In this document: positions 319 to 33,323 of the stretch, piece after piece | Position numbering within the stretch: the stretch's first letter is position 1 | Layout of the letters: every line of letters begins with the position of its first letter | NCBI GenBank assembly: GCA_016183025.1 | Contig: JACPFL010000090.1 | Location: 1 to 34,546, forward strand | DNA length: 34,546 nt | Direction of reading: 5' to 3' | DNA from: Deltaproteobacteria bacterium | GTDB taxonomy: Bacteria; Desulfobacterota; JACPFL01 | Made by a program: the position numbers and the translations under genes | The notes under the pieces: generated by a model | The model's input: the letters and a program-made list of their open reading frames with translations, nothing else | Database searches by the model: none | Told to the model about the DNA's origin: nothing

Positions 319-828
319 ATGAGAAAGACCACGAGGGGGATAGTTGCTGGCCTGGGGCTGGGGTTCACTGTCCTGGCGGGCCTGCCGGGCTCCGCACGGC
401 AGGTGCTGGCCCAGGTGGAGGAGGCGACGATCAAGATCCAGGGGACGATGACCTGCGTCCTCTGAGCGTACGGGATCGACAAGTCCCTACAGCGCCTGGA
501 TGGCGTTGCCAGATCGAAGACGTCCCACGAGACCCACCTGGCCCACGTCACGTTCAAGCCCGGCAAGCCCGTGGACTTCGAGGAGTTGGCCCGGGCTGTG
601 GACAAGGCCGGGTTCAAGGCTGGGGAGATCCAGATCCGGGCCACCGGCACCCTGACGATCGCGGGCGGGCACCTGGCCCTGAAGGTGGCGGGGAGTGACC
701 AGGTGATCCCCCTCGTCGAGGACGAGCAGGCGGCCAGGCTCAGAGGGGAAGCAGGCCGGCGGGGCACCCTCACCGGGCGGGCCCGCGGGAAGGCCCTGGC
801 GGTGGAGACGTTCGTCCCGAAGCCGTGA
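319..828 (+). CDS. Secreted MerP-like HMA-domain selenoprotein (CxxU)
   Basis: The 169-codon frame starts at ATG 319 behind GGGAGG (309-314) and contains TGA at 463-465, read here as selenocysteine 49. Residues 1-31 are a signal peptide (basic start, hydrophobic core, AQ at the end). Residues 35-105 are a heavy-metal-associated (MerP/CopZ) fold in which the usual MTCxxC loop reads MTC-VL-U, followed by a typical beta-alpha-beta continuation (VTFKPGKPVDFEELARAVDK). About 60 further residues form a beta-rich tail of unknown role. HMA domains bind soft metal ions through the two chalcogen residues; in the periplasm this would be a Hg/Cu scavenger handing ions to a transporter. Without readthrough neither half makes sense: the first stops inside the metal loop and the second lacks it. 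The start is clear; Sec is an inference from the Cys position. Confidence 0.85.
490..508 (+). promoter_or_regulatory. SECIS-like hairpin after UGA 463-465
   Basis: Bases 490-496 pair with 502-508 (7 bp, one GU) around the loop TGGAT. The loop starts 31 bases after the UGA and has G as its second base, matching the published loose bacterial SECIS rules (apical loop 16-37 bases after UGA, a G within the first two loop bases). Found by eye, not by a folding program. Confidence 0.5.
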
Positions 829-856
829 GGGGCGGATAAGCCGAGACGGGGGTGCC

Positions 857-1753
857 ATGCGAGAGAAGCCGGATCCGATGACGAGATGGCCCTGTCATCG
901 TCGCGTGCGAGTTGTCCAGACCTGGGTACTGGTGGGCAGCCTCGTGGTGCTCGCGGGCAGTGTGCTGGCTGCCGCCGGGCCGATGTGCCCGCTCCTGTTC
1001 CATTCGAACCGGGAGGGCTCCTATCACGTCTACCGGTTGGACCCCGATGGTTCTGTGACACGCCTGACCCAGGGCCCTGGCAGCCACATGAACCCCGCGG
1101 CCTCCCGAGATGGCCGGGTCATCGCCTACGACCGGGATGGTGATGTCTACGTAACTGACCGGGAGGGCCGGTCGCACCGGCGGCTGACCACTGACGCGAA
1201 GGCCAATGCCTGCCCGGTCCTCTCCCCTGATGGCCGCTGGATGGCCTACCAGAGCAACCGTGCCGGGCGGTTTCAGATCTACCTTCAGGACCTCCGGAGC
1301 GGGCAGGACCAGGTCTTCGTACAGAGCCGCGGCCACGACGGCTGTCCGGCGTTCGGACCGGATGGACGGCGGATCGCCTTCCTGAGTGACCGGGACGGGC
1401 AGGGGGAGATCTACGTGGTGAATCGCGACAGCCGGCAGCAGGAGCGGCTGACCGTTCACGAGGCCATGGACATGGACCCGGCCTTCTCCCCCGACGGGAC
1501 CAGGATCGTGTTCGCCTCGGACCGCGACGGGCACTTCGAGCTCTACCTCCTTGACCTCCGGACTCGGACCCTGGAGCGGCTCACGCGGGGGCCGCGCTCC
1601 AGCATCCAGCCGGCCTTCTCCCCGGATGGCCAGTGGGTGGCATTCGAACGGGACGGGGACGTCCACCTGCTGGACCTCCGGACGCGCCGAGAGGTGAACG
1701 TGACTGATGGCAAGGGGTATAGCGGGGCCCCCGTATGGCTCCCCTGTCCCTGA
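857..1753 (+). CDS. Secreted TolB-like beta-propeller (PD40 repeats)
   Basis: This is a 298-residue protein. After an N-terminal hydrophobic segment (about residues 22-42) it carries six or so repeats of the form (F/A)SPDGxxIxFxSDRDGxxExYxxD, the PD40/WD40-like repeat of TolB propellers: SPDGRWMAYQSNRAG, GPDGRRIAFLSDRDG, SPDGTRIVFASDRDG, SPDGQWVAFERDG. Only the propeller is present; the N-terminal domain of true TolB is absent and no tol/pal genes are near. It therefore is probably a periplasmic scaffold or binding protein of this metal island, not TolB itself. It follows the HMA selenoprotein by 28 bases and precedes the permease gene by 15, so it is probably co-transcribed. Confidence 0.8.
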   Translation: MREKPDPMTRWPCHRRVRVVQTWVLVGSLVVLAGSVLAAAGPMCPLLFHSNREGSYHVYRLDPDGSVTRLTQGPGSHMNPAASRDGRVIAYDRDGDVYVTDREGRSHRRLTTDAKANACPVLSPDGRWMAYQSNRAGRFQIYLQDLRSGQDQVFVQSRGHDGCPAFGPDGRRIAFLSDRDGQGEIYVVNRDSRQQERLTVHEAMDMDPAFSPDGTRIVFASDRDGHFELYLLDLRTRTLERLTRGPRSSIQPAFSPDGQWVAFERDGDVHLLDLRTRREVNVTDGKGYSGAPVWLPCP

Positions 1754-1768
1754 TCGGAGCGGTGACCC

Positions 1769-2806
1769 ATGCGCGAGTTCCTGGGCGAGACGGGGCTCTT
1801 CCTGTACGCGACCGCGAACCATGTGTTCGGGATGATGTACTGGATCTGGTTCCCCGGCCTGGTGGTGTCCGGCTACCTCTGGCTCCGGTGGCACCACGTG
1901 CTGGCCGCTGCCCTCCTGGAGCGGCAGAGGGAGAGGGAGAGCAGCCCGGCCTGGCTCACGGCGCTCCTGCTGGGGATCACGGGCTCCCCGGACCGCGGCA
2001 CCAGTCTGGACGAAGCGCGCCACCTGGTGTCGCGCGGGGCTGGGGCGCGATCAGTCCTCCTGCACCTCGTCGCCAGCCAGCAGCTAGCCCCGTACGCCCT
2101 GGCCTTCCTCGTGACGAACCTCGGGCTCGAGTTTTTCTTGGGCCAGCTCTTGGGAGCGCTCGCCATGGCGCTGGTAGCGTCAGGGCTTGTCCGGCTGGTC
2201 CCGGATGACCGCTGGGAACAGGCCCGGAAGGCGCAGGCCTGGGCCACTACGGACGAGCCCCGGCTGCTCACTGGGGGCATGCCATCCAGGCCCATGCGCG
2301 GGATCCTTCGGTACCTGGCCGGGGAGGTTCGGGTCCTGTGGAAAGGCGTCGTGGTCGGGCTCGTGCTGGCAGGGCTGATCGGCGCGGCGGGCCGGACCGA
2401 CTGGTGGCCGGACCTGGGCAAGGTGGGCGGCGGTGGGTTCTGGACGGCCCTGCTCAACGCCGTGGCCGGCGCCGCGCTGGCCCTCGTCTTCTTCGCGGCC
2501 CCCATCGGGCATCAGCTTGTCGGGACGATGCTCTGGAAGGCCTACACCCTGACGTTTCCCGGGATCGTGGCGTTCTTCCTGGCTACGCTGGCCACCCCCC
2601 GGGCCATCCGTCACTACTGCCGCATGTACGGGGCCGGTCTGGGCCTGTACCTGGGCGGCATCTTCCTTGTCTCGGCGGCCATCGGCGCGCTCTTCGTCGC
2701 GGGCCTGTTCTGGGTTGTGGGATTTGAGGTGACGCACGTGCCGCGGTTCCACGAGATCGTGAACGAGATCATGATATTCTTCTCGGTTTTCGGGAAGACG
2801 ATGTAG
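1769..2806 (+). CDS. Multi-pass membrane protein, predicted permease (ArsP/DUF318-like, tentative)
   Basis: A 345-residue polytopic protein with about eight hydrophobic segments. The first half (helices near 10-45 and 105-145) and second half (190-215, 228-260, 270-290, 295-330) are separated by a polar loop at about 150-185. The layout of two helix bundles with short re-entrant Gly/Pro-rich stretches (TFPGIVAFFLATLATP) resembles the predicted permeases of the ArsP/DUF318 group, which export organoarsenicals or metals, but no diagnostic motif is conclusive. Cys is nearly absent (one, in HYCRMYG). Its position among metal-binding secreted proteins suggests efflux of a metal or organometal. Confidence 0.6.
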   Translation: MREFLGETGLFLYATANHVFGMMYWIWFPGLVVSGYLWLRWHHVLAAALLERQRERESSPAWLTALLLGITGSPDRGTSLDEARHLVSRGAGARSVLLHLVASQQLAPYALAFLVTNLGLEFFLGQLLGALAMALVASGLVRLVPDDRWEQARKAQAWATTDEPRLLTGGMPSRPMRGILRYLAGEVRVLWKGVVVGLVLAGLIGAAGRTDWWPDLGKVGGGGFWTALLNAVAGAALALVFFAAPIGHQLVGTMLWKAYTLTFPGIVAFFLATLATPRAIRHYCRMYGAGLGLYLGGIFLVSAAIGALFVAGLFWVVGFEVTHVPRFHEIVNEIMIFFSVFGKTM

Positions 2807-2844
2807 AGAGTTCCATGCGTCATGCGAGACTCCCCGGAGGGCGG

Positions 2845-3165
2845 ATGAGGCGGAGAGTGGCGGTCGGGGTATGGGTGGTTATCCTGCTGGGGGTGCTGGT
2901 CCCGGCGCTGGGAAGCGGGGCGACCCGCCCGTTCGAGGGGGAGGGCGAGGTTGTCGCGGTGGACCTGGAGAAATCGTCGGTCACGATCAAACACGGGGAG
3001 ATCCGGGGGCTGATGAGCCCCATGACCATGGAGTTCACGGCGAAGTCCCGCGAGCTCCTGAAGGGGGTGAGGCCCGGGGACAAGGTGCGGTTCACGCTGG
3101 AGCGGTCGGGGCTGAGCGTCATCTTGACGGAGATCCTCCGCCAGGGGGAGACGGATTCGAAATAG
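2845..3165 (+). CDS. CusF/CopK-type periplasmic metal-binding protein
   Basis: After a signal peptide (about 25 residues from ATG 2845) comes a small beta-barrel domain with the CusF-like pattern: GEVVAVDLEKSSVTIKHGEI, then GLMSPMTMEF, then LLKGVRPGDKVRFTLE. In CusF the Met residues of this MxxMTM segment plus a His/Trp bind Cu(I) or Ag(I); here His (KHGEI) and the PMTM methionines are kept, so metal binding is likely. ATG 2815 is an alternative in-frame start; 2845 has the better ribosome site (GGAGG 2836-2840) and a cleaner signal peptide. It starts shortly after the permease gene stops. Confidence 0.8.
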   Translation: MRRRVAVGVWVVILLGVLVPALGSGATRPFEGEGEVVAVDLEKSSVTIKHGEIRGLMSPMTMEFTAKSRELLKGVRPGDKVRFTLERSGLSVILTEILRQGETDSK

Positions 3166-3229
3166 GGGGGTCCGCTGGTGGCCGCAGAGGCGACGGGTGC
3201 CCTGCGACCAGGGGAGGAGGCCCATGTGC

Positions 3230-3613
3230 ATGACACGAAGAAGTGGCTGGCTGCTAGTGGGGCTAGGACTGGCTTTAGTGCTAATCCTCGGCGCGGAGGG
3301 CATGGCCCAGGAACAGCAGATCTATGCCCGGGGGAACGTCACGGCGGTGCAGGTGGAAAGGTGCGGCCATAAGCCGGGTAGCTGTGAAGGAACCCTGTCG
3401 CTGAACAGCCACGGGAAGGCCATCACCGTAAAGGTGACGGGCGCGTCGGTCATCAAGATGGATGACAAGCCCATGATGCTCCCCGGGATCAAGGCCGGTG
3501 ATGAGGTGACCGTGGTCTACGTGGAGCAGGCGGACGGGAACGTCGCCAGGGTCGTGGAATACTACATGAAGCCCGGCGAGCACCGTCCTGCCGGGTCCAG
3601 TCCCCGGCATTAG
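3230..3613 (+). CDS. Secreted Cx6CEG protein of unknown function, copy 1
   Basis: ATG 3230 lies 9 bases after AGGAGG (3215-3220); ATG 3224 and GTG 3197 are longer options. A signal peptide ending near MAQE precedes a roughly 100-residue beta-rich domain. Its hallmark is a cysteine pair in CGHKPGSCEG (Cx6C followed by EG), then GKAITVKV, then PMMLPGIKAGDEVTVVYVEQ. The gene at 4365-4715 encodes a clear paralog with the same framework. I do not recognise a named family. The paired cysteines, secretion and neighbours suggest a small OB-like metal- or thiol-binding protein. Confidence 0.75.
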   Translation: MTRRSGWLLVGLGLALVLILGAEGMAQEQQIYARGNVTAVQVERCGHKPGSCEGTLSLNSHGKAITVKVTGASVIKMDDKPMMLPGIKAGDEVTVVYVEQADGNVARVVEYYMKPGEHRPAGSSPRH

Positions 3614-3643
3614 GGCATCGTGACCGGGCTTCGAGGGGCTTGC

Positions 3644-4183
3644 ATGATCCAAGGATCACGGGCCTCGAACGGTCGGACGGGCGTCCGTGTGCGGACCCGG
3701 CCGGCTGTGGCGGTGGCCACGGCGCTGCTGGTCGTGCTCGCGGGATGGTCCGCGAGCCTAGCCGGCAGCCTCGGGGAGCGCGCGCCCGCCTTCGCCCTGC
3801 CGGGGCTGGTGAACGGCAGGCTGGTGAGCCTCCAGGAGTTCCGGGGCCGGCCCGTGGTGCTGAACTTCTTCGCGGCGTGGTGCCAGCCTTGCTGGGCGGA
3901 GATGCCCGTGCTGCAGCGCGCCTACGAGCGCTACCGGGCCAGTGGAGTGGTCGTCATCGGGATCGGTGTGTTCGATGACGCCCGCTCGCTCCGGGCCATG
4001 GTCGAAAAGCTCGGGATAACCTTCCCCGTCGTCTACGACCGGGACGGGGTGGCTGCCCGGGCGTACCGGCTGTGGGGCCTGCCGTTGACACTCGGCATTG
4101 ACGCCAGAGGCACGATTCGCCGAGTACTGCCGGGCGCGCTGGATGAACAGCGGCTCGAGAAGGCGATTCAGGTTCTGCGGTAA
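3644..4183 (+). CDS. TlpA/ResA-like thioredoxin-fold protein, membrane-anchored or secreted
   Basis: About 179 residues from ATG 3644 (GTG 3620 is upstream and in frame). A hydrophobic segment at about 20-42 is a signal peptide or anchor. The rest is a complete AhpC/TSA-TlpA fold: APAFALPGLVNGRLVSLQEFRGRPVVLNFFAAWC-QPC, with the redox pair Cys80/Cys83 in WCQPC, and the cis-Pro region LWGLPLTLGIDARG. Family members reduce or rearrange disulfides outside the cytoplasm, often for haem or copper protein maturation. Here it may keep the cysteine/selenocysteine loops of the neighbouring secreted metal proteins reduced. The frame ends at TAA. Confidence 0.85.
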   Translation: MIQGSRASNGRTGVRVRTRPAVAVATALLVVLAGWSASLAGSLGERAPAFALPGLVNGRLVSLQEFRGRPVVLNFFAAWCQPCWAEMPVLQRAYERYRASGVVVIGIGVFDDARSLRAMVEKLGITFPVVYDRDGVAARAYRLWGLPLTLGIDARGTIRRVLPGALDEQRLEKAIQVLR

Positions 4184-4364
4184 GCACGTAGAGACGGGCT
4201 TCCTGGTGGGGGGCGACCATGCGAGGGCTCATGCCTGAACAGGCGGGGGGGTGACCCCACCCCGGGTGAGGAGTAGGGCCTCCCTCGGGCTTCCCGGACC
4301 GAGAACAAGACCGGGGAGGGATACGTGCTGCGCCTAGGTGCGCATAGGAAGGAGGGTCACAGAC

Positions 4365-4715
4365 ATGAGGGCAGTGATCCGTCTGCTTGCCCCGGTTGCT
4401 CTATCCCCTTTCCTCCTTTGGGGCCTCATTGTGGGTCCTTCGCTGGCCTCCGAGGAGGGGAGCTATGAGGGTCGCGTCCAGGACGTCAAAGTGATCAAGT
4501 GCGGCCTCCCGCCGGCGGAGTGTGAGGGCTCGCTGCTTCTTGACGTGGCCGGGAGACCGGTGACCATCGCCCTGAAGCTCGGGCCGAAGGAACTCGTCAG
4601 GGGCCAGGAAACGATCGGTCTGCCCATGATCCGCCCTGGCGACGTGGTCACCGTCCGATATGTGCGGCAGGGGGATGAGCTGGTGGCCCGCAGCGTTCGG
4701 GTCCATCCCCGCTAG
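4365..4715 (+). CDS. Secreted Cx6CEG protein of unknown function, copy 2
   Basis: ATG 4365 follows AAGGAGG (4349-4355) at good spacing. The 116-residue product has a signal peptide (about 1-32, ending SLASEE) and the same domain as the protein at 3230-3613: VIKCGLPPAECEGSLLLD, GRPVTIALKL, IGLPMIRPGDVVTVRYVRQ, ARSV. The two copies share Cx6CEG, the LPxIxxGDxVTVxYV stretch and the terminal ARxV, so they arose by duplication and diverged strongly. Function is unknown; a metal or oxyanion binding role is inferred from context. The 180 bases before it contain small GC hairpins (for example 4248-4263) but no gene. Confidence 0.75.
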   Translation: MRAVIRLLAPVALSPFLLWGLIVGPSLASEEGSYEGRVQDVKVIKCGLPPAECEGSLLLDVAGRPVTIALKLGPKELVRGQETIGLPMIRPGDVVTVRYVRQGDELVARSVRVHPR

Positions 4716-4807
4716 GTGAGGTGGCTGACGGGATGGGCCCCATGCAAGTCCTCCAGCACGATGCCGGTGAGATTGCCACAAGCACAAAAGAGGGGAGGGA
4801 GAAAGGC

Positions 4808-5107
4808 ATGCGCGTAAGAACAATTGCCGCTCTTGTGACGGTTCTGGGTGTCATCGGCCTCGGGGCCAGCCTCGGCCTCAGCCAGCCGATGACAGGGATG
4901 GAGCAGCAGGCTCCTGGTGGGGAGATGCCCATGGGGCCGGGTCCGGGAATGATGGGCGGGCAGATGGGCCAGATGCCGATGATGCCCATGATGCAGATGA
5001 TGAACGAGTGCGCCCGGATGATGGCACAGATGGGCGGTGGCATGGGAGGCACGGCCCCCGGGCAGACGCCTGCGCAGCCCGGGACGCCGGCACCCCGGGG
5101 GAGGTAA
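4808..5107 (+). CDS. Small secreted methionine-rich protein
   Basis: A 99-residue product from ATG 4808 behind a GAGGGAG site. Residues 1-25 are a signal peptide. The mature part is nearly all Gly, Pro, Gln and Met, with about 18 methionines and a single Cys within some 50 residues (MPMMPMMQMMNECARMMAQM). Clustered methionines of this kind bind soft monovalent metals such as Cu(I) and Ag(I) in periplasmic chaperones and in CopB/PcoE-like proteins. The middle may form an amphipathic helix with a methionine face. It is probably a metal sponge; no enzymatic fold is visible. Confidence 0.75.
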   Translation: MRVRTIAALVTVLGVIGLGASLGLSQPMTGMEQQAPGGEMPMGPGPGMMGGQMGQMPMMPMMQMMNECARMMAQMGGGMGGTAPGQTPAQPGTPAPRGR

Positions 5108-5120
5108 GGAGGGTCAGGTG

Positions 5121-5369
5121 ATGGCAGGACCAGCGGTGCGTGTGTACTCCGAGCCCGGGTGACTTTTTTCGGACCAGGCGAAGGAGTTCCTGTCGCGCCA
5201 TCAGATTGCGTTCACGGACCATGACACGGCCAGCGACCCCGCCGCGCTGGAGGAGGCGCTGCGGCTGAACCGAGGCGTCCGGGTGACGCCGGTGATCGCG
5301 GTAGGGGAGGAGGTCGTGGTCGGCTTTGACGAGCCACGGTTGCGCCGCCTGCTGGGGCTGGAGGGGTGA
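5121..5369 (+). CDS. Glutaredoxin-like selenoprotein (UxxS)
   Basis: ATG 5121 follows AAGGAGGG (5107-5114). TGA 5160-5162 is codon 14 of 83 and falls exactly where glutaredoxins have the first Cys of CPxC: VRVYSEPG-U-LFSDQAKEFL. After it the family pattern runs on undisturbed: LSRHQIAFTDHD, then the cis-Pro loop GVRVTPVIAVGEEVVVGFD, and a closing helix RLRRLLGLEG. The second Cys of the motif is Ser, giving a monothiol-type (here monoselenol) UxxS site. There is no signal peptide, so it is cytosolic. It could reduce glutathione- or metal-linked mixed disulfides in metal detoxification. It sits 27 bases before the double-UGA HMA gene. Confidence in the fold is high; Sec is inferred from position. 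Confidence 0.85.
5163..5192 (+). promoter_or_regulatory. Candidate SECIS region of the glutaredoxin gene
   Basis: Two alternative hairpins follow UGA 5160-5162. One pairs 5175-5178 with 5189-5192 (CAGG/CCTG) around a 10-base loop with G second, starting 16 bases after the UGA. The other pairs 5164-5171 with 5179-5186 (8 bp with several GU) around GACCAGG but is only 9 bases away. This is the weakest SECIS candidate in the window. Confidence 0.3.
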
Positions 5370-5395
5370 CCTCGCCGATTCCCGGATGAGGGCCC

Positions 5396-5659
5396 ATGGA
5401 ACGAGCGCAAGTCCTGCTCCGGATCACCGGCATGACCTGAGGACGCTGAGCCGCCCGGGTGCGGGGGGCTTTGGAGAAGCTCCAGGGCGTGCAGGAAGCG
5501 ACGGTGGATTGGGAGGAAGGATCGGCCCTGGTCTCCTACGATCCGGAGGGCCTGACGCTCCAGCAGCTCCAGGAGGCTGTGGAGGCCTCCTCTGACGCCG
5601 ACCATGTGTACCGGGTCGTCGGGAGCCGGCTGGCGGAACCCTGGCCGCCTCCGAGATGA
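5396..5659 (+). CDS. HMA-domain protein with two in-frame UGAs (GMTUGRU)
   Basis: From ATG 5396 the frame meets TGA at 5438-5440 and again at 5447-5449, then stays open to TGA 5657-5659 (87 residues). Both UGAs replace exactly the two cysteines of the HMA signature GMTCxxC, giving ITGMT-U-GR-U-AARVRGALEKLQGV. The rest is a full HMA domain: the helix after the loop, VQEATVDWEEGSALVSYDPEGLTLQQLQEAVEA, and a short tail. The paralog at 10563 has Cys at the first and UGA at the second position, so cysteine and UGA interchange within this locus. A diselenol metal site would bind Hg(II) or Cu(I) very tightly. No signal peptide is seen, so it is a cytosolic chaperone-like protein. Ordinary gene callers would report only the fragment after the second UGA. 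Confidence 0.85.
5468..5488 (+). promoter_or_regulatory. SECIS-like hairpin of the double-UGA HMA gene
   Basis: Bases 5468-5476 pair with 5480-5488 (9 bp, two GU) around AAG. The loop starts 27 bases after the second UGA and 36 after the first, so one element could lie in range of both. The same structure at the same spacing occurs after the UGA of the paralog (10704-10724); two GU pairs here are GC there. The underlying codons encode the same Ala-Leu-Glu, so the changes are synonymous. Confidence 0.5.
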
Positions 5660-5726
5660 GGCGGTGTGGGACCGGCCGGGACAGTATGAAGCGGTAGGGG
5701 GATACAGCGGAAGGAGGGAGGAGGGC

Positions 5727-6401
5727 ATGGGACCGAGGAAGCTCTGGTCAACCCTCGCTCTGGTTGGGATTTCCACTCTGGTCTGGCTAGCGGGGACGAT
5801 AACTGGCGCGGCGGCCGGATTCCAGCAGGCGCCGGGCTCGGGGGCGGAGGGTCGGGTGCTCGTCTATGTGACGCCCCGCTTCCTTACGGTCAATGCCACC
5901 TGCCTCCGTCAGGAGCCGTGCGAGCGGGAGGTCCGGACTGCGCTGGAGAAGACGGCGGGGATCGGCAAGATCATGGCCTACCGCCCGCAGGGGGCCATGA
6001 TGGTGGACTATGAGGGCAAGCGGATCACGCCGGAGCAGCTGACGGGGGTCGTCACCAGGGCGATGGCTGGCGAGCCGGTCCGCTGGACGCCGATCGAGGT
6101 CCGGTACACGGGCTCCCGGAAGGTCCCCAACAAGCTCGTGGCGCAGGTCAGCCCGGGGCGGGTGACCCTGGTCTCAGAACGGTTCCTCTGAATTTCCTGT
6201 GCGACGCGTGCCGTCGCATGGATCGAGAAGTTGCCGGGGATCACGAAAGTGGAGTTCTTCGGGCCTGAGCACATGATCGTGGCGGACTACGACGCGAAGA
6301 AGGTCAACGGGAAGGGCATCGCCGCCATGGGGCTGATGTCCCTGGAGATGGACCCTATCTACGCGGCCCTGCCGGAGTACACGATCGAATACGTCAAGTG
6401 A
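5727..6401 (+). CDS. Secreted tandem HMA-like selenoprotein (second domain UxxC)
   Basis: The 224-residue frame starts at ATG 5727 after GGAGGGAGGAGGG and includes TGA 6189-6191 as codon 155. Residues 1-36 are a signal peptide. Two related HMA-like domains follow. Domain 1 (about 46-120) has a modified loop, RFLTVNATC-LRQEP-C, and GIGKIMAYRPQGAMMVDYEGKRITPEQL. Domain 2 (about 145-215) repeats the pattern as RFL-U-IS-C-ATRAVAWIEKLPGITKVEFFGPEHMIVADYDAKKV. Both loops begin with RFL, so the domains are an internal duplication, and the UGA is the first metal ligand of domain 2. Translation ending at the UGA would leave a complete first domain, so a shorter product is also possible. It would act in the periplasm as a soft-metal binder. 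Confidence 0.8.
6197..6221 (+). promoter_or_regulatory. SECIS-like hairpin after UGA 6189-6191
   Basis: Bases 6197-6205 pair with 6213-6221 (9 bp, including six consecutive Watson-Crick pairs TGCGAC/GTCGCA) around the loop GCGTGCC, which begins with G. The loop starts 14 bases after the UGA, slightly closer than the usual 16-37. It is the most stable-looking hairpin of the set. Confidence 0.5.
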
Positions 6402-6444
6402 CCTGGGCCCTGGCACAGGAGCACCCAACATCGGGGAACATTCG

Positions 6445-7062
6445 ATGTCCGAGTGGGCAGAAGAGATCGAGCGCTATCTGGCGAGCTTTTCCCCGGAAGA
6501 GGTGGCGGTGAGCCGGTATGCCTTCCGCGCCATCCTCGCCGGCGCGCCCGCGACGCTGACCGAGTTGCCCGGCGCCCTCAGCCTGTCGCCCGCAGCGGTC
6601 GAGGCCGCCGTCCGCCGGCTCACCGAGCGGGGAATCATGGCGATGGCCCCCCAGCCCCAACGGATCGTGGGGGTCCGTGGGCTGTCCTCGGTCGAAACGG
6701 ACCATCGCCTCACGCTGGGAGGGCGCCAGCTCTACGCCTGGTGCGCCGTGGATGGGGTGGGGATCCCGGCCGCGCTCAGGGCCGACGCTCGGGTGGAATC
6801 CCGCTGCCACCACTGCGGGGTCCCGCTGAGCCTGGAGCTCAAGGGCGGGGCCGTCGTTGAGGCGCCGGAGGGGCTGGTGATCTGGGCCGCGGAGCGGGAT
6901 CTGAGCCGGTCTCTCCGGGCCTACACCTGACCGCTCATCAACTTCTTCTGCTCGGTCGAGCACATGCAGGCGTGGGAAGTGACTGCCCCACGGCCGGGCC
7001 GGATGCTGACCCTCGGGGGGGCCGCTGCCCTGGGCCCCCGCCTATGGGGGAGCCTTCTGTGA
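6445..7062 (+). CDS. merB: MerB-type organomercurial lyase, selenoprotein form
   Basis: Reading through TGA 6928-6930 as codon 162 gives 205 residues, close to MerB length (about 212). The N-terminal winged-helix region (residues 1-80) is followed by the MerB core: LYAWCAVD supplies the catalytic pair Cys100/Asp103 (Cys96/Asp99 in plasmid R831b MerB), SRCHHCG holds the structural Cys, and after the UGA comes PLINFFCSVEHMQAW, matching the CHVHFFAS...W segment that carries catalytic Cys159. The UGA aligns with that Cys159. MerB cleaves the C-Hg bond of organomercurials by protonolysis, giving Hg(II) for MerA. The frame ends at TGA 7060-7062. No merA or merR is in this window. The TGA truncation alone would remove an essential residue, so Sec readthrough or a pseudogene are the alternatives; the intact tail argues for readthrough. 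Confidence 0.88.
6949..6962 (+). promoter_or_regulatory. SECIS-like hairpin in merB with GGTC loop
   Basis: TGCTC (6949-6953) pairs perfectly with GAGCA (6958-6962) around the tetraloop GGTC. The loop starts 23 bases after the UGA. The E. coli fdhF SECIS has a GGUCU apical loop recognised by SelB, so loop and spacing both fit well. Confidence 0.6.
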
Positions 7063-7204
7063 GGCGGATGGGTGGCGGCTGACAAGCCCACGTGCATTTC
7101 TCGCGTGATTGGAGAGATTTTCGCCGGCTGACCTGTGAACCATTTGATCATTCCGGGAGTATTAGGAGAGTGGGGCAAGGAGCATGAGGCGGAGGGGCAC
7201 CCCG

Positions 7205-8611
7205 ATGGCAAAGGACGACGCGCCAGTTCTCAGAGGAGGGTTCGGCCCTCGCCAGGAGGGCGAAGCTCTCCTGGTCTGTCTCCAGCGGAAGGAGGGCCTG
7301 GAGGCCGTCCTGGACAGCATCACGAGGGACGGACTCATCACGGTCGACGAGACCGGGCAGGTCGCCGTCTTCAACCGGGCGGCGGAGCAGCTCACCGGGC
7401 TGACCCGGACAGAGGCTTCGGGGTTGACGGCCGAGGAGCTGTTCACCCGGATCCTGGGGTCGGGTTCGCTCATCAAGCAGGCGCTGGCCGAAGGCCGGTA
7501 TGGGCCTGATGAGGAGCAGGAAGTGCTCTCCCGAGACGGGAGCCGTCGCCGGGTGGCTGTCACGGCGAGCCCGATCCTAGAGGACACGGGGCAGCGGGCG
7601 GGGATCATGGTGGTCCTGCGGGACATCCAGGATCTCCACGAGCTGCGGGAGCAGCTCATCGACCGCTTTCGGTTCCACCACCTCATCGGGAAGAGCCGTC
7701 CCATGCAGGCGGTCTACCAGTTGATCCGGCAGGTGGCCGGCAGCGGGGTCCGAGGCCCGTTCGTTCCGGTGAACTGCGCGGCTTTGCCGGAGGGGCTGTT
7801 GGAGAGCGAGCTGTTCGGACATGTCCGGGGGGCCTTCACCGGAGCCCACCAGGACCGCACCGGTCGCTTCGACGCGGCGAACGGGGGAACCATCTTTCTG
7901 GACGAGATCGGCGAGATGAGCCCCCTCATCCAGGTGAAGCTGCTGCGGGTCCTGCAGGGGCACGAGTTCGAGCGGGTGGGGGAGAGCAAGCCCCGGCGGG
8001 TGGATGTCCGGGTCCTGGCGGCGACGAACCGGAACCTGTGGGAGCTGGTGCAGGCGGGGAAGTTCCGGGACGACCTGTACTACCGCCTGAACGTCGTGAC
8101 GATCCACCTCCCGCCCCTGCGCGAGCGGCGGGACGACATTCCCCTGCTGCTGGACCACTTCATCGGAAAATTCAGCCGGCAGCTCGGCAAGGAGGTCCGG
8201 TCGGTCAGCCGTCCCGCGCTGCGGGCGCTGATGGGCTACGACTGGCCGGGGAACGTCCGGGAGCTGGCCAACGTGATCGAGCGGGCGGTCCTGCTCACAG
8301 CGGGGCGCTCCATCGACATCGAGGATCTGGCGCTGGGTCGGGACCGGGGGAGGCCGCGCGCGGGCGGGCCCGCCGCTGGGCCCATGATGCCAACCGAGAG
8401 CGGAGCGGGGGGCCGTCCCGCTCCGGAAACCGGGCTCGCCCTCAAGGACCTTGAGCAGGCCCACATCGCTTGGGTCCTGGCCCATACAGAGGGGCGGCGC
8501 AACCAGGCCGCAGCACTCCTCGGCATCAGCCTGCGCAGCCTCTACCGGAAGCTCCGTGAGTACGGCTTGAGCGGGGGCCCTGCGGGAGCGGGACCGGGAG
8601 AGGCAGCCTGA
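7205..8611 (+). CDS. Sigma54-dependent activator (PAS-AAA-Fis) lacking the Walker A loop
   Basis: A 468-residue regulator from ATG 7205, placed 8 bases after GGAGGGG; ATG 7184 is an alternative. Residues 30-150 are a PAS sensor ([29 protein letters not shown]). The sigma54 AAA+ domain follows with [23 protein letters not shown], the sigma54-contact loop GAFTGA (209-214), Walker [13 protein letters not shown] (228-238), sensor [12 protein letters not shown], arginine-finger region [12 protein letters not shown] and sensor [18 protein letters not shown]. The C-terminus is a Fis-type HTH ([23 protein letters not shown]). Between QVAGS (176-180) and VRGPF the usual 25 or so residues containing GESGTGKE are missing without loss of frame. 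ATP binding should be crippled. It lies between the merB-type and merE-type genes and near a sigma54 promoter (9070), so it is probably the local regulator. Confidence 0.9.
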
Positions 8612-9123
8612 CGGCGACTGGCTGGAAGCGCCACATACTGCTAGCCACGGCGGCTGTGACCTGTCCCTGTCACATCCCGGTGTTGGCGGCGATCCTCGGG
8701 GGGACGGCCCTGGGTGGCTTTCTAGCGGAGCACTGGGCTCTGGCCGTGGGGGCGGCCAGCTTCCTGTTCGCGTTCAGCCTCGGAGCCTGGCTCAGCAGTC
8801 GGCCTCGCGCCGCAGCTTCGGGGTGCGGGGGCGGCGGCCTCGATCCTCAATCTCTTCCTAGTCAGGGGTTGGCGTGGTCAGGGGTTGGCGTGCGAGGACA
8901 GCATGAAGGGACTGCAGATCTGGCACGGAGCCCCTGCCAGCTCTGGCGGTTAGCCGTGTCAGATCTGGCGGTAGCTTTCCCGCGAGCGTGGGCCCGGGCA
9001 GTGTTTGGCCAAGAGCCGTTTCGCGGCGGGGAGTTACATGGCCTCATTCATCCGGCGGGCGGACCTGCCGGGCATACCCCTTGCGTAAGCAGCTCAGAGC
9101 AAAGCCGAGGATGTCCTGGCTAG
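8608..9123 (+). CDS. merE: MerE-like mercury transporter with odd start and long tail
   Basis: The core [55 protein letters not shown] matches the small MerE family (TGYLWG..VLTCPCHLPILA...GAFIGEHW), a two-helix inner-membrane protein that moves Hg(II) and methylmercury through its CPC motif. No ATG exists: the only standard start in frame is GTG 8656, which would cut the first helix just before CPC. CTG 8608, overlapping the regulator's TGA as CTGA and preceded by GGAGAGG (8597-8603), fits the expected N-terminus better. After about residue 70 similarity ends and the frame continues roughly 100 residues through low-complexity sequence, crossing a 16-base tandem duplication (8861-8892). That tail is probably not real family sequence; the true stop may have been lost by the duplication. 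Confidence 0.7.
8861..8892 (+). repeat. Tandem duplication of a 16-bp unit
   Basis: GTCAGGGGTTGGCGTG occurs twice back to back with no mismatch. Sixteen is not a multiple of three, so the duplication changes the frame of anything translated across it. With a single copy the merE-like frame would end some 25 codons further on, at TAG 8951-8953. Confidence 0.9.
8919..8986 (+). repeat. Three degenerate 22-23 bp repeats, candidate activator sites
   Basis: TCTGGC recurs at 8919, 8942 and 8964, followed each time by a short spacer and AGC (TCTGGCGGTTAGC, TCTGGCGGTAGC). The period is 23 then 22 bp, about two helical turns. The first unit contains a perfect dyad CTGGCA/TGCCAG (8920-8925 and 8935-8940); the second an imperfect TCTGGC/GTCAGA. 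They lie about 110-180 bp upstream of the transcription start expected from the sigma54 promoter at 9070, the usual place for enhancer sites of NtrC-type activators. Confidence 0.5.
9070..9085 (+). promoter_or_regulatory. Sigma54 (-24/-12) promoter
   Basis: GGGCATACCCCTTGCG matches the consensus TGGCAY-N5-TTGC at every conserved base except the first T. The GG (9071-9072) and GC (9083-9084) dinucleotides are exactly 10 bases apart. Transcription should start near 9096 and serve the DUF302, membrane protein and HMA selenoprotein genes. A sigma54 activator gene ends less than 500 bases upstream. Confidence 0.6.
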
Positions 9124-10562: not shown

Positions 10563-10910
10563 ATGGTGAAGTGGCGCAACCTGTGGCATGACCCTGGGAT
10601 CTTCCCGGACCCGGCGGGGCAAGCCCCAACCGGTGGGAACCAGCAGGTCCGCCTGAAGGTCACGGGGATGCTGTGTGGCCTGTGAGCCCGCCGGGTGCGG
10701 GGGGCCCTGGAGGGGCTCCCGGGCGTGGTCAGGGCTGAGGTAAGCCTGGCGAGCGATGCCGCGGAGGTCGTCTGCGCTCGCCCCTTCGCGTGGGAACAGG
10801 TTGAGTCGGCCGTTCGGGCGACGGTCATCCTACCGGGTCTCCGGCGCCTGCTCGATCGGCTCGGGCGGGCCTGGGGCCTGGGGCGGTCGGGCGCACGGGG
10901 CCCCGGCTGA
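10563..10910 (+). CDS. HMA-domain selenoprotein (GMLCGLU)
   Basis: From ATG 10563 the frame contains TGA 10683-10685 as codon 41 and ends at TGA 10908-10910 (115 residues). VRLKVTGMLC-GL-U-ARRVRGALEGLPGVVRAEVSLASDAAEVVC is an HMA domain whose second metal ligand is the UGA. It aligns directly with the double-UGA protein at 5396 (U-AARVRGALEKLQGV): first ligand Cys here, UGA there; second ligand UGA in both. About 28 extra residues precede the domain and a helix rich in Leu/Arg follows. With no signal peptide it should act on the cytosolic side, perhaps delivering metal to or from the membrane protein encoded 8 bases upstream. Confidence 0.83.
10704..10724 (+). promoter_or_regulatory. SECIS-like hairpin after UGA 10683-10685
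   Basis: Bases 10704-10712 pair with 10716-10724 (one mismatch at 10708/10720) around GGG. The loop starts 27 bases after the UGA, exactly as in the paralog at 5468-5488. Confidence 0.5.
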
Positions 10911-13572: not shown

Positions 13573-13701
13573 AACCCCCGGCGGATCGAGCCGGTAGAGC
13601 ACGGTGAGTGCATTCTCGTTTGACAAAGCGGCGAGCTGGAGGCTACCCGTGACATCACAGCATGGCGGTACTGGGCCATGGAACCGCAAGGAGGGTCGCC
13701 C

Positions 13702-14916
13702 ATGAGACGCGGGATGATGATTTGCGGCTGTCTCTTCGCCGGGCTCCTCACCGCGGGAGCCGCTCTCGCCGAACCATGCCTCTCTCCCTACGTCAAGCGC
13801 CTGGCGGGCCCGGAGAAGTACCTCTACGTCTCCGCGGTGGACGCCGACGCCAAGGACAACGACTTTCTCGCCGTGATCGATGTGAACCCGGCCTCGGCAA
13901 CGTACGGTCGGGCGCTCACGACAGTGGACCTGGGCTCGGCTGGGAACGAGCCGCACCACATGGGGTTCACCGACGACCGGACCAAGATCTGGATGGGCAC
14001 CCTCCTCTCCAGGCGGCTCTTCATCATCGATGTGGCCGCCGACCCGGCCACGCCCAAGATCGTCAAGACCATCGACGACATCACCGCGCTCACGGGGCTC
14101 CACGGCCCCCACACCTACTACGCGCTTCCGGGGCGGATGCTCCTCACGTTCCTCTCCTCTGCGGACGGCAATCCCCCGGGGGGCATGGCGGAGTTCACCA
14201 ACGACGGGCAACTGATCCGGGTGTTCAAGAACCCGGCCGGGGCGCCCTACGCCTACGACGCGGCCGTGAAGCCGCAAATCAACCGCCTGATCACCTCGAG
14301 CTTCACGCCGCTGCGGAACTACTCGAAGCCGCTCTCCCAGTGGGACATGAAGGACGGCGGCAACACCCTGCTCGTCTGGGACTTCAAGGAGCGGAAGCTC
14401 CTCCAGACCCTCGTCACCGACCCGGTGCCGTTGGAGGTGCGCTGGAGCCTCAAGCCGGGCAAAGCGTACGGCTGGACCAACTCGGCGCTGGGCGACTCCC
14501 TGTGGTTCTTCAGCCGGGGGAAGAACGGCCGCTTCTCCACGAGGAAGGCGGCGGACCTGGGGAAGGGGTGCCTCCCGGCTGACCTCCGTCAGTCGCCGGA
14601 CGACCGTTACCTCTACGTCTCCTGCTTCATGAAGAGCGAGATCCAGGTCTGGGACGTGTCCAAGCCCGACAGGCCGCGCCTCCACGACATCGTGGTGCCG
14701 GGCGTCTCCCCGAACATGATGCACGTGTCAGGGGACGGCAAGCGGATGTACATCACCAACTCGCTCCTCTCGACCATGGACTACGCGCAGAACTTCTGGG
14801 TCCGGCTGACCCACATCGGCCCGGACGGCCGGCTCAAGATGGACCCGTTCTTCAACGTGGACTTCACCAAGTTCCCCACCGGGCCGGCACGGGCCCACGA
14901 CATGCTCCTGAACTGA
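13702..14916 (+). CDS. mtoX: SBP56 selenium-binding protein / methanethiol oxidase type
   Basis: ATG 13702 is 6 bases after AAGGAGGG. The 404-residue protein has a signal peptide (to about residue 24) and then the SBP56 seven-bladed propeller over its whole length: KYLYVSAVDADAKDNDFLAVIDVNP, GNEPHHMGF, HGPHTYYALPGRMLLTFLS, LPLEVRW-like PLEVRWSLKP, ADLRQSPDDRYLYVSCF, SPNMMHVSGDGKRMYITNSL, AHDMLLN at the end. The histidines of NEPHHMG, HGPH and the C-terminal AHD are the copper ligands expected of methanethiol oxidase, which oxidises CH3SH to formaldehyde, H2S and H2O2 in the periplasm. Human SBP56 binds selenium. A SCO1 copper chaperone gene follows directly, as at known mtoX loci. Methanethiol or methylselenol are possible substrates. 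Confidence 0.9.
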   Translation: MRRGMMICGCLFAGLLTAGAALAEPCLSPYVKRLAGPEKYLYVSAVDADAKDNDFLAVIDVNPASATYGRALTTVDLGSAGNEPHHMGFTDDRTKIWMGTLLSRRLFIIDVAADPATPKIVKTIDDITALTGLHGPHTYYALPGRMLLTFLSSADGNPPGGMAEFTNDGQLIRVFKNPAGAPYAYDAAVKPQINRLITSSFTPLRNYSKPLSQWDMKDGGNTLLVWDFKERKLLQTLVTDPVPLEVRWSLKPGKAYGWTNSALGDSLWFFSRGKNGRFSTRKAADLGKGCLPADLRQSPDDRYLYVSCFMKSEIQVWDVSKPDRPRLHDIVVPGVSPNMMHVSGDGKRMYITNSLLSTMDYAQNFWVRLTHIGPDGRLKMDPFFNVDFTKFPTGPARAHDMLLN

Positions 14917-33246: not shown

Positions 33247-33323
33247 GGCGGCGTAGCTCAGGTGGTTAGAGCGGAGGTCTCATAAGCCTCTTGTCCGGGG
33301 TTCGAGTCCCTGCGCCGCCACCA
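33247..33323 (+). tRNA. tRNA-Met (CAT), elongator type
   Basis: Full cloverleaf. The acceptor GGCGGCG (33247-33253) pairs with CGCCGCC (33313-33319), followed by A and an encoded CCA (33321-33323). The anticodon stem is GAGGT/GCCTC with loop CTCATAA and anticodon CAT at 33281-33283; the T arm has TTCGAGT. G1-C72 pairs and the anticodon stem lacks three GC pairs, so it is not the initiator; elongator Met is the best call, with a lysidine-modified Ile tRNA as the less likely alternative. Confidence 0.95.

Follow-up and report, generated by a model that had tools for sequence, protein, structure and literature searches.

The question raised by this locus is whether an in-frame UGA ends a MerB-like gene or is read as the second catalytic residue of an organomercurial lyase, and how such an enzyme would work among its neighbours. 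In the window (the whole stretch of 34,546 nucleotides analysed here), we favour, with a probability of about 0.8, a MerB/MerB2-type lyase that has selenocysteine (Sec), inserted by SelA, SelB, SelD and tRNA-Sec, in place of the second catalytic cysteine and that is encoded inside a packed run of Sec-bearing metal-handling genes. The gene content points to what appears to be a selenium-armed mercury-detoxification cluster.

The MerB-like gene (6445-7062, + strand) encodes 205 residues; its codon 162, at 6928-6930, is TGA, the only one in frame. PF03243 matches residues 80-200 and spans the UGA with 91.3 bits, above the gathering score of 27. In phmmer comparisons with PDB sequences, residue 162 falls on the catalytic Cys159 of R831b-type MerB (3f2g/1s6l) and on the equivalent cysteine of MerB2 (5c17). 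A multiple alignment agrees, placing Cys100 on Cys96, Asp103 on Asp99, Cys121 on Cys117 and UGA162 on Cys159. The first-pass annotation, which had put the UGA on Cys159 of R831b MerB, held Cys100 and Asp103 to be intact and proposed alignment with MerB structures as a check, is thereby upheld on each count; the Cys96/Asp99/Cys159 catalytic set is complete only if Sec counts as cysteine. The MerB fold is predicted with high confidence: the AlphaFold model has a mean pLDDT of 90 and TM scores of 0.93 to MerB2 (5c17) and 0.77 to R831b MerB, with a low-confidence loop at 158-160, directly before residue 162. The protein thus shares with MerB/MerB2 (5c17; R831b 1s6l, 3f2f; PF03243) the fold and the Cys96, Asp99 and structural Cys117 columns, but it has a UGA (Sec) codon for Cys159 and a CxxC (RCHHC) where MerB/MerB2 has the single Cys117. 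By its NCBIfam scores it is a divergent MerB, under the cut-offs of both NF009710 (94.5 of 193 bits) and NF033555 (87.9 of 200 bits).

Homologs with an ordinary cysteine, the search for which had been proposed as a check, exist: four close ones (L017-L020) read CPLINFFC at the place of the UGA, and TGC or TGT stands at this codon in homologs outside the lineage, from Anaerolineaceae, Njordarchaeum, Fraserbacteria and a Proteobacteria MAG. The reading frame continues intact for 43 residues after the UGA. Compared with L017, residues 163-180 are 12/18 identical (67%) and residues 80-161 31/82 (38%); the higher identity of the tail indicates that it is under constraint, in line with the initial claim that the sequence after the UGA is the conserved MerB tail. 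No other genome of the host's class was among those compared. The viral contigs searched held no related MerB, and plasmid matches were all below 60% identity, the three examined carrying cysteine.

A third difference from MerB/MerB2 is the gene setting: no merA, merR or merT, as a classical mer operon would have, lies beside merB, only MerP- and MerE-like neighbours. Six window genes carry seven in-frame UGAs, and five of the six lie in a same-strand run (319-7062) with intergenic gaps of 5-154 nt. The run (all genes on the + strand) begins with a secreted HMA/MerP-like selenoprotein with a CVLU motif (319-828, UGA 463-465; PF00403 40.5 bits, NF041115 47 bits), which has a CELU paralog on contig C302. 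It continues with an ArsP_1-family permease (1769-2806; PF03773 53 bits), a CusF-like periplasmic metal-binding protein (2815-3165; PF11604 70 bits) and a TlpA/ResA-like thiol-disulfide oxidoreductase in the cysteine form CQPC (3620-4183; NF002854 104.8 bits). Directly upstream of merB are a Uxx-star glutaredoxin-like selenoprotein (5121-5369, UGA 5160-5162, PGULFS; NF041212 65.3 bits against a cut-off of 66), an HMA metal-binding selenoprotein with a UxxU motif, GMTUGRU (5396-5659, UGAs 5438-5440 and 5447-5449; PF00403 59.7 bits, NF041115 65.5 bits), and a secreted two-domain MerP-like selenoprotein with a UxxC motif, FLUISC (5727-6401, UGA 6189-6191), for which the TIGR02052 match is weak (27 bits) and which finds no match in the 394 other genomes of the phylum. 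Downstream, also on the + strand, lie a PAS-sigma54 activator (7184-8611; PF00158 181 bits), a possible regulator of the cluster, and an open reading frame (8656-9123) whose N-terminal part resembles the mercury transporter MerE (NF010310 48.8 bits over residues 1-44; the true start may lie upstream). The sixth UGA gene, outside the main run, encodes an HMA-like selenoprotein, GMLCGLU (10563-10910, + strand, UGA 10683-10685; NF041115 37.9 bits with one TGA).

These neighbours resemble known kinds of selenoprotein, namely UxxU_metal_bind (NF041115), Uxx-star (NF041212) and MerT_CopZ_Se (NF045683), but all score below the curated cut-offs. Sec in the mercury-transport proteins MerP and MerT is a published prediction (Zhang and Gladyshev, PMC2398784; PMC9312934), and in the available portions of those reports no organomercurial lyase is linked to the putative selenoproteins; the literature searched held no cluster joining such selenoproteins to a Sec-containing MerB. 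Elsewhere in the genome, a gene on contig C244 (L097, 6506-7520) joins an HMA domain to a downstream MerA-type motif, GTCVNIGCVPSK; it appears to suffer a frame break and runs off the end of the contig. A genome search for MerT gave no match, as did its control search, and a genome search for HgcA found none. Other HMA proteins of the same genome likewise have a UGA within the CxxC motif: CSGU in L096 (C281), CELU in L098 (C302) and CDLU in L099 (C10). Further along the window are a selenium-binding protein/methanethiol oxidase-like gene (13678-14916; NF052453 301 bits against a cut-off of 650), which is followed by a SCO1/ResA-like gene, and a tRNA gene (33247-33320; Rfam RF00005, 65 bits).

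Sec in a MerB-like protein is not wholly new, given that SaoL ("alkylmercury lyase MerB-like protein") is already catalogued as a predicted MerB-like selenoprotein in PMC9312934 and PMC13188914; within the SAO system it is the organometallic lyase (NF040728; Haft and Gwadz 2023, via PMC13188914). The window protein could then be a SaoL-like lyase acting on some unknown organometal other than organomercury, with the cluster a variant on the SAO idea. One relative, L023, is recognised by the SaoL model (175 bits) and in our alignment reads CU at the Cys159 column; it is on this reading that SaoL's Sec is placed in the same column as that of the window MerB. The ArsP-type permease in the cluster moreover makes an organoarsenical role thinkable. 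However, the window MerB scores 54.8 bits on NF040728, against a cut-off of 140, and it has TU where the SaoL-type L023 and L025 have CU. In the tree its place is among the Cys-type MerB and MerB2 sequences, apart from the SaoL rows, no Sao family besides this weak SaoL match was found among the window proteins scanned, and the MerE- and MerP-like neighbours speak for mercury. We therefore consider a SaoL-like role unlikely; judged by its sequence, the window MerB is a non-SaoL protein, from another MerB branch and in another gene setting.

How might a Sec-containing MerB work? In the established mechanism two cysteines bind Hg, protonolysis is aided by an aspartate, and the Hg is finally drawn off by thiols (PMC4525700; PMC8261052), which by analogy makes Cys100 and Sec162 the probable Hg ligands and Asp103 the probable helper in the window protein. 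Organomercury arriving at the active site would be taken by Cys100 and Sec162, the C-Hg bond would undergo protonolysis assisted by Asp103, and the resulting Hg(II) could then be passed to small thiols or to selenol/thiol HMA carriers, and also to the MerA-like reductase encoded on the other contig. The sequence, the residue columns, the Sec machinery and the gene context are observed; the presence of Sec in the protein, the substrate, the sequence of Hg hand-overs and a possible benefit from selenium we infer. A faster or safer transfer of Hg due to selenium would be plausible, and the first-pass annotation's suggestions that a selenolate would bind Hg more tightly or could speed protonolysis are, for this enzyme, hypothetical. 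A more specific and still tentative version is a selenolate-to-selenolate relay, in which Hg would move from the Sec-containing MerB to the UxxU, CxxU and UxxC HMA carriers, and in which the double-Sec MerB families of relatives, described below, would reflect repeated recruitment of Sec. The Hg-Se bond is very strong, and this general chemistry gives some weight to another reading, that the protein is a mercury trap or sensor from which the product is not released; in the computed mechanism, the product is released only when both cysteines have let go of Hg (PMC4525700). Yet the catalytic cysteine and aspartate are kept, the protein is predicted to fold like MerB2, and the adjoining UxxU and CxxU carriers could accept Hg by selenium exchange, so that a trap or sensor seems improbable to us and a working lyase remains the preferred reading.

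Whether the UGA is read as Sec at all can be judged from the rest of the genome. Family searches of the host genome recovered SelA (620 bits), SelB (365 bits), tRNA-Sec (80 bits) and SelD (338 bits), so that the absence of Sec machinery, which the first-pass annotation had named as a possible refutation, does not apply. An in-frame UGA also interrupts selD itself (GAGUACK), and a long stem built around GGUCC comes after it. A change of genetic code, in which UGA would stand for an amino acid throughout, was considered and rejected: among the 32 window gene ends listed, UGA is the commonest stop (17, against 11 UAG and 4 UAA), and UGA is thus not reassigned. All seven in-frame UGAs of the window occur where a metal- or redox-active cysteine would be expected, a pattern that neither chance nor sequencing error explains. 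The annotation's call on the MerB UGA is borne out by these data, but its account covers one of the seven UGAs and overlooked both the cluster and the catalogued precedent of SaoL for Sec in this MerB column. With the cysteine homologs, the conserved tail, the complete Sec machinery, the neighbouring UGA genes and a plausible bacterial SECIS element (bSECIS), Sec at the Cys159 position of MerB is strongly supported, while the identity of the residue and any catalytic benefit are matters that we infer.

For the hairpin, published rules exist: according to PMC13188914, a bSECIS has a stem of 4-16 bp, a loop of 3-9 nt with an early G, a spacing of 16-37 nt and a minimum free energy of at most -7.5 kcal/mol. 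The candidate after the MerB UGA (6949-6962, + strand, TGCTC-GGTC-GAGCA) lies inside the ranges for stem (5 bp), loop (GGUC) and spacing (23 nt from the UGA to the loop), but the isolated stem reaches -5.4 kcal/mol against the limit of -7.5, the fold of 50 nt giving -11.2. A GGTC-loop hairpin had been described here at a spacing of nine codons; the hairpin is present, but its stem starts 18 nt (six codons) downstream. A GGTC tetraloop closed by at least five pairs at similar spacing follows 22 of the 7372 window codons (0.3%). On the other hand, the conserved S-V-E-H peptide favours such a stem, and a cysteine homolog, L066, also forms a short one at the same place, with an AGTT loop, so that the MerB stem is partly dictated by the protein. 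Given its weak energy and this partly peptide-driven stem, we regard the hairpin as supporting and not decisive evidence, and as a plausible bSECIS. Plain folding energy after each UGA is uninformative in this GC-rich DNA, where about 16% of codons are followed by a bSECIS-like hairpin of -7.5 or lower by chance. The generic hairpin test is informative for the two-domain MerP-like gene only, in which the UGA is followed by a hairpin of 10 pairs, of a kind that 0.15% of codons have behind them. A hairpin at equal spacing is common to the CVLU gene and the CELU paralog, with changes that preserve the pairing; after the Uxx-star UGA, no hairpin fitting the bSECIS model was found.

The weakness of the MerB hairpin, and the fact that the standard code ends the frame at 6930, would suit a true stop or recent decay leaving a truncated MerB without Cys159. 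This reading is very unlikely in view of the intact and conserved 43-residue tail, the six further UGAs on functional cysteine positions of five other genes and the complete Sec machinery. A sequencing or assembly error in a TGC or TGT codon, which had also been named as a possible refutation and for which one may invoke the host assembly (308 contigs, about 90% completeness, probed here by family searches), is hardly credible: a lone error is implausible when seven would have to occur independently, all at metal- or redox-active cysteine codons, and relatives carry UGA in the same MerB column.

Hg-Se chemistry is usually seen as a cause of the toxicity of mercury to selenoproteins. In the window cluster, selenocysteine is apparently used on purpose for mercury handling, and the cluster and the MerB families with two UGAs make the effect of a selenolate on C-Hg protonolysis or on Hg transfer directly testable. 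Because the standard code ends such frames at the UGA, the capacity to cleave organomercury in such lineages may also be under-counted.

In a survey of 395 genomes of the phylum, 32 had a MerB-like match, most of them with one or two internal UGAs. Family A (16 loci: L029-L033, L035, L036, L038, L039, L041-L043, L045, L046, L048 and L051) has, in the alignment, UGA at both catalytic cysteine columns and Glu in place of Asp99, and shows no conserved neighbours; with this Glu, such a double-UGA MerB (for example L030, 1438-2187) could also have a different organometal as its substrate. Family B (L044, L047 and L049) also has UGA at both columns and keeps the Asp. UGA at the Cys159 column only is found in the SaoL-type L023 and L025, and also in L037. 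No model of NCBIfam 20.0 takes the tested members of families A and B, which score 42-50 of 140 bits for SaoL and 35-56 of 193-200 bits for the MerB models. A single Sec clade is rejected (p-AU 5.5e-7), which implies repeated gain or loss of Sec at the Cys159 position, the long branches of the MerB tree calling for caution on the exact number of such events. All 19 double-UGA genes have a GGUC-loop hairpin at a fixed 19 nt after the second UGA; 98.5% of its pair cells are standard, and seven cells are changed on both sides, against a shuffled mean of 2.3 and 0-2 in slid controls. In L037 (1297-1758, - strand), the UGA at the Cys159 column stands in the sequence SLURKMVF, and the near relatives L027 and L028 carry cysteine at that place.
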